Assembly: GCF_036013525.1 (NCBI RefSeq)
Contig: NZ_CP107853.1
Span: forward strand, 11,656,001-11,720,000
Origin: Nonomuraea sp. NBC_00507
GTDB lineage: Bacteria > Actinomycetota > Actinomycetes > Streptosporangiales > Streptosporangiaceae
Direction of reading: 5' to 3'
DNA: 64,000 nucleotides
The number at the start of each line of letters is the position of its first letter. Within the stretch, counting starts at the first letter, position 1. Shown one piece after another: positions 8,998 through 44,323 of this stretch. The position numbers were made by a program, and so were the translations under genes. A model generated the notes under the pieces. The model saw only the letters and a list, made by a program, of their open reading frames with translations. It was not told where the DNA came from and ran no database searches.

Positions 8998-9277
8998 GCG
9001 TCAGATTACGCCGCACTCAAGGAGAAGCTGCAGCGGCTCCAAGATGAGGAGGACCAACGGGTTATCCGGGAGGGTATTGCGCGCATCGAGCGCGGCGAGC
9101 CCGATCCCGAAGGTACGGTCGTCATCTCCGCCGGCTCACGCGAAAAGCTGGAAGCCAAGCTGGCCGAATCGCTGGGACTGCATTGCGCTGCCAGACGCCC
9201 ACATCCCTGCGGCATACGAGATCCACACCTCGGCCCTGACGGTGAAGTTCACGATCTACGACGACGAGGTCGACTAG
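8998..9277 (+). pseudogene. Frameshifted gene remnant without a start codon
   Basis: Frame 1 after TAG 8995 reads as real protein (SDYAALKEKLQRLQDEEDQR, then IERGEPDPEGTVVISAG and EKLEAKLAESLGL), with no Met, Val or Leu start in a sensible place. Near 9180 the plausible continuation (LPDAHIPAAYEIHTSALT to IYDDEVD and a TAG at 9275) is in frame 2. It therefore lacks a start and carries a +1-type shift. A short helical protein of antitoxin-like size; family unknown. Confidence 0.5.
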
Positions 9278-35996: not shown

Positions 35997-36017
35997 CCAT
36001 CTGGATGGAGCACTGCC

Positions 36018-36839
36018 ATGCCGTACATCACCGCGGCCGACCGCACCGAGATCTTCTACAAGGACTGGGGCTCCGGCCAGCCGGTCGTCTTCAGCCACGG
36101 CTGGCCGCTCAACGCCGACGCCTGGGACAGCCAGTTGCGTCTGGTGGCCGAGAACGGCTACCGCGCCATCGCCCATGACCGCCGCGGCCACGGACGCTCC
36201 ACACAGGCGTGGAGCGGCAACGACATGGACACCTACGCCGACGACCTGTTCAGCCTCCTGGAGACGCTGGACCTGCGCGGCGCGATCCTGGTCGGCCACT
36301 CGACGGGCGGCGGCGAGGTGGCGCGCTTCCTCGGCCGCCACGGCAGCACCCGCGTCTCCAAGGCCGTGCTCCTGGGCGCCGTGCCGCCACTGATGCTCAA
36401 GACGGACGCCAATCCGGGAGGCGTGCCCATCGAGGTCTTCGACGACATCCGCGCGGGCGTGCTGGCCGACCGCTCGCAGTTCTACAAGGACCTCAGCGCC
36501 CCCTTCTACGGCGCCAACCGGCCCGGCTCGACCGTCTCGCAGGGCACGCGGGAGGCGTTCTGGCTGATGAGCATGCAGTGCGGGCTGAAGGGCGCCTACG
36601 ACTGCGTCAAGCAGTTCTCGGAGACGGACTTCACCGAGGACCTGCGGCGCATCGACGTGCCGACGCTGATCGCGCACGGCGACGACGACCAGATCGTGCC
36701 CATCGCGAACGCCGCCATCAAATCGGCCGAGCTGGTCAAGGACGCCACGCTGCAGGTGTACGAAGGGGCTCCGCACGGCCTGACGGGCTCGTTCAACGAC
36801 GCCTTCAACGCCGACCTGCTGGCCTTCATCCAAAGCTGA
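36018..36839 (+). CDS. Alpha/beta hydrolase (non-haem chloroperoxidase-like)
   Basis: 273 residues. [12 protein letters not shown] (oxyanion region), nucleophile GHSTGGGE, acid in HGDDDQIVP and final His in GAPHGL form the triad. Closest in look to cofactor-free haloperoxidases/perhydrolases; an esterase role is equally possible. ATG 36018, weak ribosome site. Confidence 0.92.
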
Positions 36840-36863
36840 TCGATTGGGGCTGATCGATTCGGC

Positions 36864-36869
36864 TAGGGT
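36864..36869 (+). promoter_or_regulatory. -10 element TAGGGT before the methyltransferase
   Basis: Eight bases before GTG 36878. Confidence 0.35.
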
Positions 36870-36877
36870 GGTCCGCC

Positions 36878-37534
36878 GTGACCGAACCGGACTTCCTGCG
36901 CGCCACCCGGGCGTCCTATGACGCCATGGCCGTCGACTACGCCGACTTCTTCCGTGACTCGCTGGCGGGCATGCCGCTGGACCGGGCGATGTTCGCCGCG
37001 TTCGCCGAGCTCGTACGGGACTCCGGGCCCGTGGCGGACGTCGGCTCCGGTCCGGGGTGGGTCACGGCGCACCTGCACGAGCTGGGGCTGGACGTCTTCG
37101 GTGTGGACCTGTCGCCGGAGATGGTGGCACTGGCCGGGCGCACATATCCCAGCCTGCGGTTCGAGGAGGGCTCGATGCTCGCCCTGGATCTGCCCGACGG
37201 GAAGCTGGGCGGTCTGGTGGCCTACTACTCGATCATTCACGTTCCGCTGGAGCGCGTGCCCGAGGTGTTCGCCGAGTTCCACCGGGTGCTGGCTCCAGGG
37301 GGTCACATGCTGGTGGCGTTCCAGGTCGGGGACGAGCCGGTGCACCGTACGGACGGGTTCGGCCACCCGATCTCGCTGGACTTCCACCGCCGGCAGCCGG
37401 ACCAGATCGCCGAGCTGCTCTGCGCGGCGGGCTTCGACGTGGATGCCCGTCTGCTCCGCGAGCCCCGGCCGGGCACCGCCTACGAGTTGACGCCGCAGGC
37501 CATGCTCCTGGCCCGCAAGCCTCTCGGTCTCTAG
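36878..37534 (+). CDS. Class I SAM-dependent methyltransferase
   Basis: 218 residues. SAM motif I is VADVGSGPGWVTAHL, followed by GVDLSPEMVALA and the late motif VLAPGGHMLVAF. Substrate unknown. Probably leaderless from GTG 36878. Convergent with the STAS gene, four bases apart. Confidence 0.92.
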   Translation: MTEPDFLRATRASYDAMAVDYADFFRDSLAGMPLDRAMFAAFAELVRDSGPVADVGSGPGWVTAHLHELGLDVFGVDLSPEMVALAGRTYPSLRFEEGSMLALDLPDGKLGGLVAYYSIIHVPLERVPEVFAEFHRVLAPGGHMLVAFQVGDEPVHRTDGFGHPISLDFHRRQPDQIAELLCAAGFDVDARLLREPRPGTAYELTPQAMLLARKPLGL

Positions 37535-37538
37535 GGGT

Positions 37539-37916
37539 TCAGGGCGCGGCCACGGCCAGCCGCAGGGCGTCGTCGAACTTCGCGAAGACCTCGAACGCGT
37601 GCCGCAGCCCGGTGATCGACAGCACCCTGGCCATGACCCCATGAACCCCGCCGAGCAGCAGCCTGGTCCCCCGGGCCTCACAGCGCTGCATGACGCTGAC
37701 GAGCTCGCTCATCCCCATGGAGTCGCAGAACGCCACCCCGCCGAGGTCCAGGATCAGGAAGGGCTGCGGGGGCAGCTCCCAGATGCGTTGCAGGTGCTCG
37801 CGCAGCACGGGCACCGCGTTGACGTCGAGCTCGCCCTCGAGCCTCATGATGATGGCGTTTCTTGAGAGGCCTGAAGTCACACTGAGCGTCGGCTTCCGGT
37901 TGGCCTCAGATGACAT
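37539..37916 (-). CDS. STAS-domain anti-sigma factor antagonist
   Basis: 125 residues, one STAS domain: LEGELDVNAVPVLREHL, then LDLGGVAFCDSMGMSEL with the phospho-acceptor Ser66, and GVMARVLSITGL. Such proteins bind an anti-sigma kinase when unphosphorylated. ATG 37916 has AAAGGA 9 bp upstream; GTG 37934 is longer. The partner kinase is not in the window. Confidence 0.88.
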   Translation of the reverse strand: MSSEANRKPTLSVTSGLSRNAIIMRLEGELDVNAVPVLREHLQRIWELPPQPFLILDLGGVAFCDSMGMSELVSVMQRCEARGTRLLLGGVHGVMARVLSITGLRHAFEVFAKFDDALRLAVAAP

Positions 37917-38087
37917 TGGCGAAGTCCTTTGCACATCTCAAGACGAGCCAAGAGAGGTTGTTGCCGCTTCCACCAAGCTTCTAACAGAAGGCCACTGCTC
38001 TGTGTCCAAATGCATAGGCCGCGGCGGAAGCGGCCAGGCCGGACGCGCGCAGCGCCGGGGGGCGAAGCGCCGCGCGGGAGGGCGTAC

Positions 38088-38306
38088 TCAGACCGCGAGG
38101 GTCAGGTACGCGAGAACCAGGACGGTGAGGATCACTACCAGGACGCTCGTGCCGCTGACCACCATGATGATGCGCGTCCGCCGGGCCATCCAGCGGATCG
38201 CGGCCACCGCCAGGGTGATCATGGTCGCCAGGATGAGGAGCGACCAGGTCTTGGTGTCGGTCGGAGGGGGCATTGCCACTGAGAGGTACAGAGCTAGATC
38301 TGTCAT
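38088..38306 (-). CDS. Small two-helix membrane protein
   Basis: 72 residues with two hydrophobic helices (WSLLILATMITLAVAAI; IIMVVSGTSVLVVILTVLVLAYL) separated by basic RWMARRTR. Unknown function. Start ATG 38306 has no strong ribosome site. Confidence 0.45.
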   Translation of the reverse strand: MTDLALYLSVAMPPPTDTKTWSLLILATMITLAVAAIRWMARRTRIIMVVSGTSVLVVILTVLVLAYLTLAV

Positions 38307-38360
38307 AAAGGTTTCCCTGGTGCGATGCGCTGTGACAGGAACCTTGCCTGCGTTCAGAAG

Positions 38361-38383
38361 ACTTCAGCATCCTTAACTGAAGT
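38361..38383. repeat. Inverted repeat ACTTCAG / CTGAAGT
   Basis: Seven-base arms around a 9-base loop, followed on the plus strand by TTGTCTCTCTTT. Either a weak terminator or an operator upstream of the small membrane protein. Confidence 0.35.
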
Positions 38384-38552
38384 TTGTCTCTCTTTATGAT
38401 TCCCTCGCTGAACCCAGGCCATTCGCACACTGCTACCAGAGATGCGTGGCTAGACTAAGGGCTCTTGTGCGCCCGATTCTCGCTAGTAGACCGTTCCGTT
38501 ACGGCCTAGCTGCGAATTCTCCATCGACTCGGGCAGCCGAATGGGCGTTTAC

Positions 38553-38573
38553 TAGAATTTTGTGAAGTTCACA
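38553..38573 (+). promoter_or_regulatory. -10 box and operator of the XRE regulator gene
   Basis: TAGAAT (38553-38558) followed directly by the palindrome TGTGAA-G-TTCACA (38561-38573), which would cover the transcription start, 15 bp before ATG 38588. The arrangement suggests autoregulation by the encoded helix-turn-helix protein. Confidence 0.5.
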
Positions 38574-38587
38574 CGAATGAGGCCGAC

Positions 38588-39694
38588 ATGAGCGGTGACG
38601 ACGTCGCGGGGACGGCGCTTGCGCACCGTCTGCGTGAGCTCCGCGAAAGCCACTGGCCTGATGTGCATGTCACGCAGGCCCAGCTGCGCGAGGCGTTCAA
38701 GATCAGTGTGCCGCTGATCTCCTCCTGGGAGTCGAGCTCGGTGATCAAGATCCCGCCGTTGCATCGGCTGGAGAAGTACGCCAGGTTCTTCGCGACCAAA
38801 CGATCCGTCGACAACGGCAGGGCCCGCCTGTTCGACGAATCCGAGCTGACCCCGGACGAACGCGAGGAGCACAAGAAGTTGCTCGCCGAGCTGACCAAGC
38901 TCCGCCAGCGGGCGCTGCGGCAGCAGAGCGCCGGCGAGGTCTTCGAGCCGGACCTGGCCGAGGGCGCCCGCCGCCGGGGCCCGTGGCACTTCCCCAGAGG
39001 CGAGCCGATCACGATCATCTGCTCACAGATCCCCGAAGAGGACCGCGCCAGGATCCCCAAGGCGGACCCCGACAACGCCGATTACGTCGCGCTCTACCGA
39101 TACTCGGATCTGGACTCGTTATTCGAGTTGTGGGGTCACGTGCGCAGCGTCAACCCGCACAGCCGGGGGGTCGTGCGCACCATGGCCGATCTCCAATCCG
39201 ACGACCTGACCACCCATGTCGTGCTCCTGGGCGGCGTGGACTACAACGCGGTCACCGAGTACACGCTCACGCGCATCGAGCTCCCGGTGCGGCAGATCCC
39301 CGACTGGGCGGGCGAGAAGGGACCCTATTTCGAAGTCGAGAGGGACGGGGACACGCAGCGGTATTATCCGGTCACGGTGGGTTCTGGCGATAGCCTGCGA
39401 CTACAGGAGGACGTCGCCTTCTTCTACCGCGGCGTTAACCCCTTCAACGTCGAACGCACTTTGACCATATGCAACGGGATATACGCCAGAGGCGTGTACG
39501 GGGCGGTCCGGGCGCTGACCGACGCTCGATTCCACGACAGGAACGCCGGCTATCTGGAGTCGCGTTTCGGCGACGCGGAGTCGTACAGCATTCTGATGCG
39601 GGTCGGGGTTCAGGGCAGGGCCGTGATCACGCCTGACTGGACCATCGACGCGTTCCGGTTACACGAATGGCCGGAGCCCACCCATGGAGACTGA
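38588..39694 (+). CDS. XRE-type regulator with unassigned C-terminal domain
   Basis: 368 residues. Residues about 10-75 form an XRE helix-turn-helix (TQAQLREAFKISVPLISSWE). A charged linker (100-135) leads to a C-terminal domain of about 230 residues with Rossmann-like segments: PITIICSQIPEE, DLDSLFELWGHVRSVNP, VVLLGGVDYNAVTEYTL, and a conserved-looking tail NPFNVERTLTICNGIYARGV then GAVRALTDARFHDRNAGYLE. I do not recognise this domain with certainty; it looks like a ligand- or nucleotide-binding sensor. It overlaps the glycosyltransferase-like gene by 11 bp, so they are co-translated. Confidence 0.8.
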   Translation: MSGDDVAGTALAHRLRELRESHWPDVHVTQAQLREAFKISVPLISSWESSSVIKIPPLHRLEKYARFFATKRSVDNGRARLFDESELTPDEREEHKKLLAELTKLRQRALRQQSAGEVFEPDLAEGARRRGPWHFPRGEPITIICSQIPEEDRARIPKADPDNADYVALYRYSDLDSLFELWGHVRSVNPHSRGVVRTMADLQSDDLTTHVVLLGGVDYNAVTEYTLTRIELPVRQIPDWAGEKGPYFEVERDGDTQRYYPVTVGSGDSLRLQEDVAFFYRGVNPFNVERTLTICNGIYARGVYGAVRALTDARFHDRNAGYLESRFGDAESYSILMRVGVQGRAVITPDWTIDAFRLHEWPEPTHGD

Positions 39695-40847
39695 AATAGC
39701 AACGGTCAGGACGCAGCATCACCACGGCTCCCACAGACATCTGGTGGACGTGTACGGCGAGGGTCTCGCCGGCGCGAAGCCGGGAACCGTCGATGCCATC
39801 GTCGTCCCCACGATCCGGCATCCGACGTGGCTGAAACACGTCATTCGGCTGGCGAGCACGCTCGGCTGTCCCCTGGTGACGCTGCACAGCCGCCGCAAAT
39901 GGAGCAAGCCGGAGCTCGCGGCCTTGTTGATGCCGAGTGACGTGCAGTTCATCGCGATCGACATCGGCAGTCCGGCCTCGCTCAACCTGCCGGACTTCCG
40001 GACGACGACGCTGCTGAAGAACACGCCGTTCGTCCGGGCGACCGACCTGAGCGCGAAGCGCAACATCGGGCTTCTGCTGGCCCGGCTGATGAGCTGGGAA
40101 CGCATCGTCTTCCTGGATGACGACATCGAGGTAGGCAGTCATGAGGAGGTCGCGCGCGCGGCGGGTCTGCTCGACAAATACGACGCGGTGGGCATGCATA
40201 TCGGTGGCTACCCGGATAATTCAGTGGTGTGCCACGCTCACCGGCTGGCCGGAGGAGATCAGGACTCGTTCGTGGGCGGCGGTGCCCTCGCCGTCGAGAC
40301 GACGCGCAATCCGTCGTTCTTCCCCAACATTTACAACGAGGACTGGTTCTATCTCCTGGGTGAGACCTCGCTACGTCGGCTGGCGGTGACCGGGCAGGTG
40401 ACGCAGCGCGAGTACGACCCTTTTGACCGTCCCATTCGCGCACGGGACCAAGAGCTCGGCGACGTGCTGGCGGAGGGCGTCTACTGGCTGCTGGACGGAG
40501 AGAAGAAGACGGGTTGGGCGGGCGCGACCGACCCGGCGTACTGGACCGGCTTCCTCGCCCAGCGCAAGGCGTTCATCAGCGACGTGCTGCGCCGAGTCAG
40601 GCGGCTCCCGGCGGGCTCGCTGAAGAACCGCCAGGCCATGGAGGCGTCGCTCGAAGCCGCGCTCGGCCGCCATCACCGCATCGATGAGGTGCTCTGCGTC
40701 TCTTATATCGAAGCCTGGAGGGAAGACCGCCGCCGATGGGCCGAGCACTTCGCCGGGACCCCGCAGCTGGACTCGACCGCTGACGCGATGAAATGGCTCG
40801 TGAAAGACAGTGAGCCGCAATTGCGCTGGTGGACATCCATGGCCTAG
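39684..40847 (+). CDS. GT-A-fold glycosyltransferase-like protein
   Basis: 387 residues. VDAIVVPTIRHPTWLKHVIR begins a GT-A fold; RNIGLLLARLMSWERIVFLD leads into the DDD metal motif (Asp145-147), followed by VGGGALAVETTR and FPNIYNEDWFYL, typical of nucleotide-sugar transferases. The donor and acceptor are unknown. No membrane segment. The ATG lies inside the end of the regulator gene, so expression is coupled to it. Confidence 0.75.
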   Translation: METEIATVRTQHHHGSHRHLVDVYGEGLAGAKPGTVDAIVVPTIRHPTWLKHVIRLASTLGCPLVTLHSRRKWSKPELAALLMPSDVQFIAIDIGSPASLNLPDFRTTTLLKNTPFVRATDLSAKRNIGLLLARLMSWERIVFLDDDIEVGSHEEVARAAGLLDKYDAVGMHIGGYPDNSVVCHAHRLAGGDQDSFVGGGALAVETTRNPSFFPNIYNEDWFYLLGETSLRRLAVTGQVTQREYDPFDRPIRARDQELGDVLAEGVYWLLDGEKKTGWAGATDPAYWTGFLAQRKAFISDVLRRVRRLPAGSLKNRQAMEASLEAALGRHHRIDEVLCVSYIEAWREDRRRWAEHFAGTPQLDSTADAMKWLVKDSEPQLRWWTSMA

Positions 40848-40891
40848 GCGCTGTTGATTCACCAGAGTGTCAACAGGGAATCTGTCCGTCC

Positions 40892-41407
40892 GTGGGGGCA
40901 CCAGATATACGCAAAGCCGACCATACCGATCTCCGCAGGATAGTCCGGTCGCTCGGGCAGAAGACGTATTTCAGCGACCGGCTGGCCAGGCAAGAGGCCG
41001 GGCACGGGTTCCTCCTCGTCGCCTGGGAGCGGAACCTTGCGGTGGGCGACGTCTACGTGTGGCTGGCCCCCGCCGAGGAGCCGGAGTTACGCGCCCACTT
41101 ACCGGGTGTCGCGTTGCTCACCCACCTGGAGGTCGTCGCCGGGCGCCGTAACGAGGGCATCGGGACGCAACTGCTGTGGGCGGCCGAGGACCGGCTCTTC
41201 GCCACCGGCCACGAACAGGTCGCCCTCGGCGTCCGGCTGGACAACCTCGCCGCGCGGCGGCTGTATCACCGCCGAGGGTATGTCGAATGGCCGCATGGGC
41301 AGGTGGCCACGACGGAGGTCGTGTATCACCCGGACGGCACGTACGAACGGCGGCCGGAGATGTGCCGCATCATGGTCAGGCAACTCGGCCGCAACCGCTT
41401 CCGCTGA
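40892..41407 (+). CDS. GNAT-family N-acetyltransferase
   Basis: 171 residues. LTHLEVVAGRRNEGIGTQLL holds the acetyl-CoA R/Q-x-x-G-x-G/A loop, and VRLDNLAARRLYHRRGYVEW is motif B of the fold. The start is uncertain: GTG 40892 gives a standard domain; GTG 40829 would overlap the previous gene by 19 bp. Third gene of the cassette; a strong hairpin follows. Confidence 0.82.
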   Translation: MGAPDIRKADHTDLRRIVRSLGQKTYFSDRLARQEAGHGFLLVAWERNLAVGDVYVWLAPAEEPELRAHLPGVALLTHLEVVAGRRNEGIGTQLLWAAEDRLFATGHEQVALGVRLDNLAARRLYHRRGYVEWPHGQVATTEVVYHPDGTYERRPEMCRIMVRQLGRNRFR

Positions 41408-41422
41408 CGCGCCGGAAGCCGG

Positions 41423-41452
41423 GCCGATCGCCCTGCGGGCAGGGCGATCGGC
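41423..41452. terminator. Hairpin terminator between convergent genes
   Basis: GCCGATCGCCCTGC (41423-41436) and GCAGGGCGATCGGC (41439-41452), a perfect 14-bp stem with a GG tip, between the acetyltransferase and helicase stops. Confidence 0.8.
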
Positions 41453-41469
41453 GCAAGTGCGCGAACCGG

Positions 41470-43224
41470 CTAACGGCGCTGGGTGGCCCAGCGGCGGATC
41501 ATGTCGATCCGCTCTTGGATCTGCTCGGCCGTGGCCTGAGCGATCGGGGGGCCGCCGCAGGAGCGTCGCAGCTCCGCATGGATGACCCCATGCGGCTGCC
41601 CCGTGCGATGGTTCCAGGCGCCCACCAGGCCGTTGAGCTCCCGCCGCAGCTCGGCGATCTGCTCGTGCGGCGCCAGGGTCTCGCGCGGCTGCTCCTCCGG
41701 CTGCTGCTTGCGCTTGGCGGCCTGCTGGTCCGACTGCCGTTTGCGCAGAAGGGTCGCCACCTGGTCGGGCTCCAGCAGCCCGGGCAGGCCGATGAAGTCC
41801 TCCTCCTCGGCGGAGCCGACCTCCGCGCCCGTGCCGAACTCGCCGCCGTCGAACAACACCCGATCGAACGTGGCCGACGTCTCCATCGTCTCGAACGGCA
41901 GCTCGTCGCCAAGGACGTCCGGGTTGTCCTTCTTGCGGTTGGCATCCTCCAGGAGGCTGTCGTCGAGACCGTCCTCCGGAGGCCGCTTGTTGAGCACGTG
42001 GTCGCGCTCCACCTCCATCTCGTTGGCCAGCCCCATGAGCGTGGGCACCGAGGGGAGGAAGACCGAGGCCATCTCGCCGCGCTTGCGGGCACGCACGAAA
42101 CGCCCCACCGCCTGGGCGAAGAAGAGCGGGGTCGAGGTCGAGGTGGCGTAGACGCCGACGCACAGGCGGGGGATGTCGACGCCTTCCGACACCATGCGCA
42201 CGGCGACCAGCCAGCGGTCCTGCGACGCGCCGAACTCCTTGATCTTCTTCGACGCGCCGGGGTCGTCGGAGAGGACCACGGTGGCGCCCTCGCCGGTGAT
42301 GTTGCGCAGGTGGCGGGCGTAGGCGCGGGCGGTCTCGTGATCGGTGGCGATGACCAGGCCGCCCGCGTCGGGCACGCCCCTGCGCACCTCGGTGAGGCGG
42401 CGGTCGGCGGCCTGCATGACCTGGCGGATCCAGTCGCCCTTGGGGTCGAGCGCGGCCCGCCACGCCTGCGAGAGCTGGTCCTTGGTGAGCGGCGTGCCGA
42501 GGGTCGCGGCGAGCTCGTCACCGGCGCGCGTGCGCCACTTCATCTCGCCGGAGTAGGCCAGGAAGATGACCGGCCGCACGACCCCGTCGTCGAGGGCGGG
42601 CCCGTAGCCGTAGGAGTAGTCGGCGACGCTGCGTTTGAGGCCTTCCCCGTCCTCCTCGTAGGCGACGAACGGGATGGGGTTGTCGTCGGACCTGAACGGC
42701 GTCCCCGTGAGCTGGAGCCGGCGCGTCGCGGGCTCGAACGCCTCCTTCACGCCGTCGCCCCACGACTTGGCGTCGCCCGCGTGGTGGATCTCGTCGAAGA
42801 TGATCAGCGTCTTACGCGCCTCGGTGCGCGCCCTGTGCAGGGCCGGGTGCATGGCGACCTGCGCGTACGTCACCGCGACGCCGGTGTAGTCGCGTGACGT
42901 CGTGCCCTGGCTGTTCTTGAACTCCGGATCGATGCCGATGCCGACCTTCCCGGCGGCGTCGGCCCACTGGCGCTTGAGGTGCTCGGTCGGGGTCACGATG
43001 GTGATCGCCCTGATCACCCCGCGGCTGAGCAACTCGCTGGCGATGCGCAGGGCGTAGGTCGTCTTGCCCGCGCCCGGCGTCGCCACGGTGAGGAAGTCAC
43101 GTGGCTCCCGCCTGAAGTAGAGGTCGAACGCCTCTTGCTGCCAGGCACGCAGCTTTTGGGCGGTGCCCCATGCGGCGCGGTCTGGATAGGAAGGCGAAAG
43201 GTGGGACGCGGCGAAGGTGCTCAC
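41470..43224 (-). CDS. SF2 DEAD/DEAH-box helicase
   Basis: 584 residues. Walker A ATPGAGKTT (51-56), DEIH box (144-147), motif III LTGTPFRSD, and motif VI QAVGRFVRARKRGE. A C-terminal coiled, Gln/Arg-rich tail (KRQSDQQAAKRKQQPEEQPR) follows. GTG 43224 has AGAGGTGAT upstream. Members are common single genes in actinobacteria and are probably nucleic-acid remodelling enzymes; specific role unknown. Confidence 0.9.
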   Translation of the reverse strand: MSTFAASHLSPSYPDRAAWGTAQKLRAWQQEAFDLYFRREPRDFLTVATPGAGKTTYALRIASELLSRGVIRAITIVTPTEHLKRQWADAAGKVGIGIDPEFKNSQGTTSRDYTGVAVTYAQVAMHPALHRARTEARKTLIIFDEIHHAGDAKSWGDGVKEAFEPATRRLQLTGTPFRSDDNPIPFVAYEEDGEGLKRSVADYSYGYGPALDDGVVRPVIFLAYSGEMKWRTRAGDELAATLGTPLTKDQLSQAWRAALDPKGDWIRQVMQAADRRLTEVRRGVPDAGGLVIATDHETARAYARHLRNITGEGATVVLSDDPGASKKIKEFGASQDRWLVAVRMVSEGVDIPRLCVGVYATSTSTPLFFAQAVGRFVRARKRGEMASVFLPSVPTLMGLANEMEVERDHVLNKRPPEDGLDDSLLEDANRKKDNPDVLGDELPFETMETSATFDRVLFDGGEFGTGAEVGSAEEEDFIGLPGLLEPDQVATLLRKRQSDQQAAKRKQQPEEQPRETLAPHEQIAELRRELNGLVGAWNHRTGQPHGVIHAELRRSCGGPPIAQATAEQIQERIDMIRRWATQRR

Positions 43225-43339
43225 CGCATCACCTCTGGGGTTCGTGTGCTTCGCTCTCTCACAGTGACCCAAGACTAATCGGGCCCACCGACAAGACGTG
43301 CCGTGAGCCGAGGATTCTGGCCAAGGTCTTCCTCACGTG

Positions 43340-44323
43340 CTAGGCGGCTTGTCCAAGGCTGTTCATGACCGCGTCGAGGGCCTGTCTGCGTGCGGTTTCC
43401 TCGGGTTGGAGCAGCCCGACGAGCAGGACGGCCTTGTCGCCGCGAGTGACCAGCATCACTCTCATGAAGGCGGGCCGGTTGACCACATCCTGATATTCCG
43501 CCCGTAGCGCCCGGGTGTGGCCCCCGGGGATCTCCTTGTCCTCGACGATGTTCACGCGGTCGCCCTTGAGCAGGAGTCTGGAGTACAGCTCCGCCGCCTG
43601 GGCCGTGGCCTCCTCGGCGTTCTCCAGGCGTCCGGGCACCGGCCTGGCCATGACCAGGCCCCCGTTCCCGTCCCTGACGACCGACGTGAACCCTGTCACC
43701 GGCGGCACCGCGCCAACGCTCCACCCCTGCGGCAACGTCGCCGTCACCCCGGCCAGCGTGTCGCTCAGCGTGCTCGTCTCCGCCGGCGGCTCGGTGATCC
43801 GCAACACCACTGCGGTCGCCCCCGTCACCAGCCCCGCCCCGGCTAACAGCGCCGCGAGCGCGCCCGCCCACCGTCGCCACACGCGCGTGCCGGCGCGCCG
43901 GCGCGTCCCGGGGTCCACCGGGGTGCCGTAGAGCCGGGCGGACGGCGGCAGCGTGTCCCAGGGCGGCGCGGACAACGGCCCTCCGCCTTCCGCGCCCCGC
44001 CCCCAATCGTCACGTTCCAGGCCCCGTCCCCAACTGCTGCCCGTGGGCGGCTCCGAGCTTCCACCGGAGGGCCAGTCCGGACCGGAGTCGTACCCGGGGT
44101 CGCGTTCGGTGGCCCTGCGGATGCGGGGGTTCCACGGCTCGCCGAGGTCCTCGCTCTCCCCCGCGTCCAGGTCGAGCGGGTGCCGCTTCCGGGGACGCGG
44201 CTCCTCGTCGCGCGGGCTCCGGCGCGCCGGAGCCCCGCCCCACTCGGGCTCCGTGTCCTCTGGAGGAGTACGGCGATGCCTGGCCCCCGGCTGAGGCGGC
44301 CAGACACGGTGATCACCCTCCAT
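43340..44323 (-). CDS. Hypothetical single-pass membrane protein
   Basis: 327 residues. The first 170 are Pro/Arg/Glu-rich and disordered, then one membrane helix (WAGALAALLAGAGLVTGATAVVL) and an outer domain of about 130 residues (LAGVTATLPQGWSVGAVPPV onward), which resembles small secreted domains of unknown function. ATG 44323 sits behind AAGGAGGTG. Confidence 0.7.
   Translation of the reverse strand: MEGDHRVWPPQPGARHRRTPPEDTEPEWGGAPARRSPRDEEPRPRKRHPLDLDAGESEDLGEPWNPRIRRATERDPGYDSGPDWPSGGSSEPPTGSSWGRGLERDDWGRGAEGGGPLSAPPWDTLPPSARLYGTPVDPGTRRRAGTRVWRRWAGALAALLAGAGLVTGATAVVLRITEPPAETSTLSDTLAGVTATLPQGWSVGAVPPVTGFTSVVRDGNGGLVMARPVPGRLENAEEATAQAAELYSRLLLKGDRVNIVEDKEIPGGHTRALRAEYQDVVNRPAFMRVMLVTRGDKAVLLVGLLQPEETARRQALDAVMNSLGQAA

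Follow-up and report, generated by a model that had tools for sequence, protein, structure and literature searches.

Within the 64,000-nucleotide stretch of Nonomuraea sp. NBC_00507 analysed here (hereafter the window; genome size 12.9 Mb), the gene of an XRE-type regulator (X) is followed on the same strand by the genes of a predicted GT-A-fold transferase (G) and a GNAT acetyltransferase, and a small membrane-protein gene diverges from X. The linkage of these genes, their layout and a palindrome upstream of X are conserved among relatives; the folds of X and G come from structure prediction. We tentatively read the four genes as a conserved, self-regulated cassette for sugar-based modification, in which a ligand would control the modification of a glycan or sugar nucleotide. 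The unit is well defined and has a predicted operator, and its sensor domain, transferase and membrane protein lie outside the Pfam families at cut-off. A preliminary description, made from the letters of the sequence, had proposed X, G and the GNAT gene as an undescribed cassette. No description of it was found in the open PubMed Central library, a search that left subscription papers and preprints outside.

The main survey used the best 80 of 104 X relatives from a scan of named genomes with an X alignment, a set skewed to close relatives. These loci span Streptosporangiaceae, Pseudonocardiaceae, Micromonosporaceae and a few other groups. G was located 3′ of X on the same strand in 77/80 loci, and within 200 bp of it in 72. 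A GNAT gene of one family was found near X in 61/80 loci: downstream and in the direction of X in 35, downstream but on the opposite strand in 16, and upstream on the opposite strand in 10. Both placements were scored by tblastn, with GNAT queries drawn from the same loci. A less biased count came from a family sample of 250 genomes taken evenly, in which X matched 45, G matched 43, and both matched 38. X and G lay on the same strand and at most 0.9 kb apart in 37 of these 38. The exception was genome G066, where two genes (~1.5 kb) separate X and G and the X match comprises the C-terminal domain only. Seven genomes had X without G, including G188 with a 26-residue fragment and G023, G193, and G220 with the C-terminal domain only; five had G without X. 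The suspected co-travel of the three genes was borne out by these counts, and regulator homologues standing mostly alone were not seen.

G was found in 7/296 genomes of a class sample; five of these lay outside the family, all in one genus, and one of the five matches was partial. The X profile matched 22/296 genomes of a phylum sample, outside the host genome with the N-terminal part only. Within the host genome X, G, and GNAT gave one match each (E 0.001), and the window X is 99 percent identical to X of Nonomuraea sp. G32.

The genes could also be chance neighbours without a common function, and the few loci without G and the 19/80 without GNAT could be cited for this. That explanation is very remote, as it is contradicted by the linkage counts above and, as described below, by the conserved operator and by a fourth gene that recurs amid differing flanking genes. 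A tree of 83 X proteins (quick method; 20/80 inner branches open) needed 10 changes for GNAT placement or loss, 12 for the kind of divergent gene, and 5 for family names, where the least possible was 4. Judged on these comparisons, the linkage has outlived rearrangement. The descent of the cassette looks largely vertical, because the X tree mostly follows family taxonomy. Parts of the cassette are duplicated at some loci: two copies of G occur at L129 and L114, two X genes surround G and a GNAT gene at L189 and L225, a second X is present at L068, and a tandem X-G pair at L069.

The upstream palindrome ends 15 bp 5′ of the X start codon. A perfect TGAANTTCA was present in 60/82 regions (at most 420 bp) before X and in 9/1300 control regions, which were taken 5′ of other called genes at the same loci and may include coding sequence. 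A core site within 60 bp of the profile-inferred X start was seen in 53/82 cases, against 0/1300 at other gene starts, and 21/82 X upstream regions held two or more core sites. In the window, perfect cores occur at 38563 and, far off, at 9243; no second core site with up to one mismatch was detected near the membrane-protein gene. Since TGAANTTCA is enriched before X, autoregulation of X through the palindrome is likely, in line with the self-regulated sensor proposed earlier. The upstream region is shared with the divergent gene, so control of the membrane-protein gene by X is possible as well. DNA binding by X, repression and its direction, and the response to a ligand are what we infer from this arrangement.

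The coordinates of the locus are collected in Table 1. The three same-strand genes and the 11-bp overlap of the X and G open reading frames (ORFs), both given in the preliminary description, agree with the ORF list. The boundary it placed before X, a −10 element with a palindrome, held for the palindrome; the −10 element was not recovered there, as a sigma-70-like scan gave one plus-strand site, at 38373-38400. The hairpin at the far end was found as described, with arms at 41423-41436 and 41439-41452 (14/14 paired), a 2-nt loop, and a fold z of −2.8. The terminator scan gave no T-run for the hairpin, and no Rfam family matched in 36000-44000.

Table 1. Features of the cassette locus (window positions).
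Feature	Position	Strand	Basis or remark
Small two-helix membrane-protein gene (72 aa; helices predicted)	38088-38306	-	ORF; hydropathy
Divergent promoter region, membrane-protein gene / X	38307-38587		Sequence; TGAANTTCA conservation
Palindrome GTGAAGTTCAC, probable X operator	38562-38572		Sequence; core TGAAGTTCA at 38563
X, XRE-type regulator: helix-turn-helix (~10-70), helical linker, predicted Rossmann-like C-terminal domain (~130-364)	38588-39694	+	368 aa, ATG
G, predicted GT-A-fold nucleoside diphosphate (NDP)-sugar enzyme	39684-40847	+	387 aa, ATG
GNAT acetyltransferase	40829-41407	+	Likelier start is in-frame GTG 40892
14-bp hairpin lying between the GNAT gene and the convergent helicase gene; probably a terminator for both	41423-41452		Perfect arms

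The three members first proposed all stand, and the list was incomplete by the divergent membrane-protein gene. Its 72-aa product has two hydrophobic segments, from residues 23 and 46, which are predicted to form two transmembrane helices; it reached the cut-off of no Pfam family and matched nothing in PADLOC. A small ORF with at least two hydrophobic segments occupied the divergent slot in 50/80 loci, compared with 4/243 other divergent pairs, and the stretch between the segments was net positive in 43/50 of these proteins. The counts come from a simple ORF caller, which saw G in 69/80 loci and missed it in 8, so that they may be low. Two-segment ORFs of 111 and 114 aa also diverge from X in another genome family (L188, L189), and a similar one was recognised by eye at L226.

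At 14/80 loci, the slot held instead a gene of another family, ~200 aa long and nucleotide-cyclase-like, in Pseudonocardiales relatives. One or the other kind of gene therefore fills the slot in 64/80 loci (50 + 14). The ~200-aa protein resembles class III nucleotide cyclases: its profile matched seven solved structures, five of which are cyclases (best E 0.013); no cyclase family was assigned by Pfam to the four members scanned. The segments VDIEGS and DRGDG, which we take to be the key cyclase motifs, are kept in 8/12 of these proteins and altered in L187, L115, L108, and L121.

The N-terminal part of X belongs to the XRE/lambda-repressor-like group. The HTH_31/HTH_3 match is weak in the window X, and HTH_31 is present in 25/26 aligned X proteins. 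The AlphaFold2 model of X had a pLDDT (predicted local distance difference test) of 85 and a pTM (predicted template modelling score) of 0.65. The preliminary description could not assign the C-terminal domain, and sequence searches also left it without a Pfam match and without a significant sequence match among solved structures. The fold search (Foldseek against PDB) gave a Rossmann-like fold with moderate scores, also seen in BcsB, in the N-terminal domains of alpha-glucuronidase and other glycoside hydrolases (GH67, GH84, GH115), and in the S-layer anchoring domain of the methanogen Methanococcus (PDB 6yg8, 1mqq, 6pv4, 6nps, 9fsa); the VIA-align listing does not exclude unlisted folds. Unlike these counterparts, to which it has no significant sequence match, the X domain is fused to a helix-turn-helix (HTH) domain. 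A fold seen here in surface and carbohydrate proteins would be coupled to transcription control, which makes the signal read by X directly testable.

Distant relatives of the X domain without HTH were found at other loci, where Pfam was run on ten genes and the other genes were assigned by eye. At L178, the genes of a G-like glycosyltransferase (120 bits), an alpha/beta hydrolase, and a hexapeptide transferase are followed by an X-type domain behind a hydrophobic N-terminus. L181 combines the X-type domain with a GT25 gene and oppositely oriented hexapeptide-type and hydrolase-type genes, and at L224 the domain stands beside a GT25-like gene. L179 and L180 have hexapeptide-type and hydrolase-type genes near the X-type domain, and no glycosyltransferase was recognised there. 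When 246 genomes were searched with the L181 protein as starting point, X proteins were among the matches, the window X at E 1.6e-6. By these assignments, a sensor domain grouped with glycosyltransferase and acyltransferase genes is met again at a few loci, there with unrelated enzymes, and such recurrence favours a common chemistry over chance. Near these HTH-less relatives, a CYTH-domain gene (L180:9361-9900, Pfam) and a nucleotide-kinase-like gene (L181:4450-5142, by eye) give a hint of nucleotide chemistry.

The description of G as a GT-A transferase-like protein was upheld by structure prediction, which gave a GT-A fold with a DXD motif. Its DDD motif (residues 145-147), invariant in 51/51 aligned proteins, is accompanied by a conserved D220-W221; no Pfam family scored above cut-off. 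The nearest fold match was MtdL, a GDP-fucose pyranose/furanose mutase of GT75 (PDB 7xpr and others), which differs from G in sequence (16 percent identity) and in lacking the link to a regulator gene that G has. Among the closest known structures were also mannosyl-3-phosphoglycerate synthase (PDB 2zu8) and glucosyl-3-phosphoglycerate synthase (PDB 5jqx), with no sequence match to G in the searches of solved structures. The TET-associated glycosyltransferase family TAGT (PF20691) gave a weak profile match in 11/28 G proteins (best E 0.005); it did not match the window G at E 1, and the L178 relative of G reached 16.3 bits, under the cut-off of 27.5.

The DDD motif of G is shared with GT75 (MtdL/UAM), across which it is highly conserved according to a passage of PMC9937993. 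G might be a GT75-type NDP-sugar mutase that supplies a furanosyl donor to an enzyme encoded elsewhere, a reading that we consider unlikely. Besides the low identity to MtdL, OsUAM2 is itself reported to be inactive (PMC9937993). The profile match of G to MtdL, confined to positions 4-138 of 364 at most, had E 0.0056 with a His-tag that aligns with histidines of G and E 0.12 once the tag was left off. The catalytic residues of GT75 include an autoglycosylated arginine (Arg159 of MtdL), Arg257, and a metal-binding His287; G has conserved arginines at R187 and R252, whose correspondence to these residues is conjectural. A conserved G segment, N-E-D-W-F, resembles the acidic motif found in ordinary GT-A transferases, which also speaks against a mutase.

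The third gene was correctly named as a GNAT, since Pfam Acetyltransf_1 matched it with 42.4 bits against a cut-off of 20.7. The GTG at 40829 would give 192 aa. A start at 40892, an in-frame GTG, is the likelier one, because the resulting length of 171 aa equals the family median (57 members called in the loci). No NCBIfam family reached its curated cut-off; AAC(3)-XI, for example, scored 19.7 bits against 300. At L098, a GNAT-like gene of a different branch (by eye) sits in the divergent slot directly 5′ of X (−); it is outside the 61 loci counted above, which are perhaps a lower bound.

For the sugar-based modification cassette that we tentatively favour, we infer the substrates, the ligand, and the role of the membrane protein as follows. 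X would bind the palindrome (core TGAANTTCA) between the two divergent transcription units and control its own operon (X, G, and often GNAT) together with the small membrane-protein gene. The C-terminal domain of X, whose fold occurs here mostly in carbohydrate-related proteins, would bind a sugar- or glycan-derived ligand, and repression would be altered. G would carry out a metal-dependent GT-A reaction on an NDP-sugar, as glycosyltransferase or mutase, and GNAT could acylate the product of G or its acceptor. The two-helix protein would work at the membrane, as a partner or target. Should the cassette yield a modified glycan or small molecule, it may reveal new chemistry of the actinomycete envelope, of resistance, or of signalling. 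A role in sporulation was also considered, since most hosts are filamentous and form spores.

Actinomycetes are known for antibiotics, and glycosyl- and acetyl-transfer are usual reactions by which compounds are inactivated. In a resistance or self-protection system, X would sense a toxic small molecule, G would glycosylate it, GNAT would acetylate it, and the membrane protein would help at the envelope. Presence of the cassette is patchy, with any X match in 45/250 family genomes, its GC content (0.58-0.67; 0.70 at the GNAT end) is low against surroundings of mostly 0.67-0.74, and it was gained or lost at one site in Nonomuraea; all three would suit such a system. It is nevertheless an unlikely account, given a GNAT outside the curated NCBIfam families and an X tree that largely tracks family taxonomy, unlike a freely moving cassette. 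The plasmid collection yielded a single 62-residue fragment of X, in a chromosome-sized record of Nonomuraea gerenzanensis. This fragment (NZ_LT559118.1:2581092-2581277, −) is unannotated, has 58 percent identity to X, and is likely a decayed copy.

The preliminary description had also suggested a defence role, possibly near defence islands, and this was not supported. No PADLOC-DB 2.0.0 family matched X, G, or GNAT (E 1), and none matched the membrane protein or any of the four cyclase-like proteins scanned (E 5). For the neighbours, proteins of 150-900 aa were taken from 34 loci among the 80 (36 hand-picked, with two redundant Nonomuraea loci removed). The scan covered 135 of the 144 near proteins chosen and 109 of the 124 chosen further out; the remainder were from the dropped loci or at contig edges. 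There was no excess near the cassette, with 13 families over the 135 near proteins and 37 over the 109 further ones. One protein may match many PADLOC models, and among the matches listed (25 of the 37 further families) many fell on single proteins. Phage records contained neither X nor G. IMG/VR had no X and two weak, local G matches, one of 133 residues at 25 percent identity and one of 80 residues at 32 percent. These two, at L227:5001-5456 and L228:5001-5234, are probably ordinary phage glycosyltransferases, and G likewise matched ordinary glycosyltransferases in the Foldseek search against viral models.

With these results, an immune or conflict system is quite unlikely, in which X or the cyclase-like protein would sense infection, the GT-A enzyme and GNAT would modify a target, and the two-helix membrane protein would act as effector. 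It draws on the alternation of a small membrane protein and a cyclase-like protein in the divergent slot and on an NLR-like gene inside or beside two copies of the cassette (L099, L182). It also draws on passages of PMC7159879, by which the conflict systems of multicellular bacteria include glycosyltransferases, a GNAT, and cyclase domains, some of them inactive. The likeness to the vWA-MoxR/VMAP systems described there lies in these domain types, whereas the central gene here encodes an XRE protein and is preceded by a conserved palindrome. More improbable still is a new signalling or immunity module of actinomycetes, with an HTH-fused sensor of BcsB/S-layer fold that reads a sugar or sugar-nucleotide signal, a GT75-like enzyme as maker or remover of the signal, GNAT as tuner, and a two-helix or cyclase-like protein as output. 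The GT75-like enzyme would then perhaps form an arginine-sugar adduct on itself or on a partner. The two NLR-like NTPase genes share a VVQAGS-type N-terminal stretch; one (L099:11224-13491, +) lies directly after X in the place of G, and the other (L182:6624-8909, +) separates the small membrane-protein gene from G.

Beyond the hairpin, a DEAD-type helicase gene (41470-43272, −) shows weak matches to PbeA and a dnd restriction model. It was rejected as a part of the cassette and is regarded as a neighbour, because it is found with or without the cassette, being present in 11/11 Nonomuraea genomes of the family sample that lack a full X. In the 9-kb stretches read from these 11 genomes, no X or G was annotated. 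The helicase gene adjoined a STAS gene in 5 of them; only a membrane-protein gene lay between the two in 2, only a GNAT gene in 1, and other genes in 3. In G188, the 26-residue X match sits between the helicase and STAS genes.

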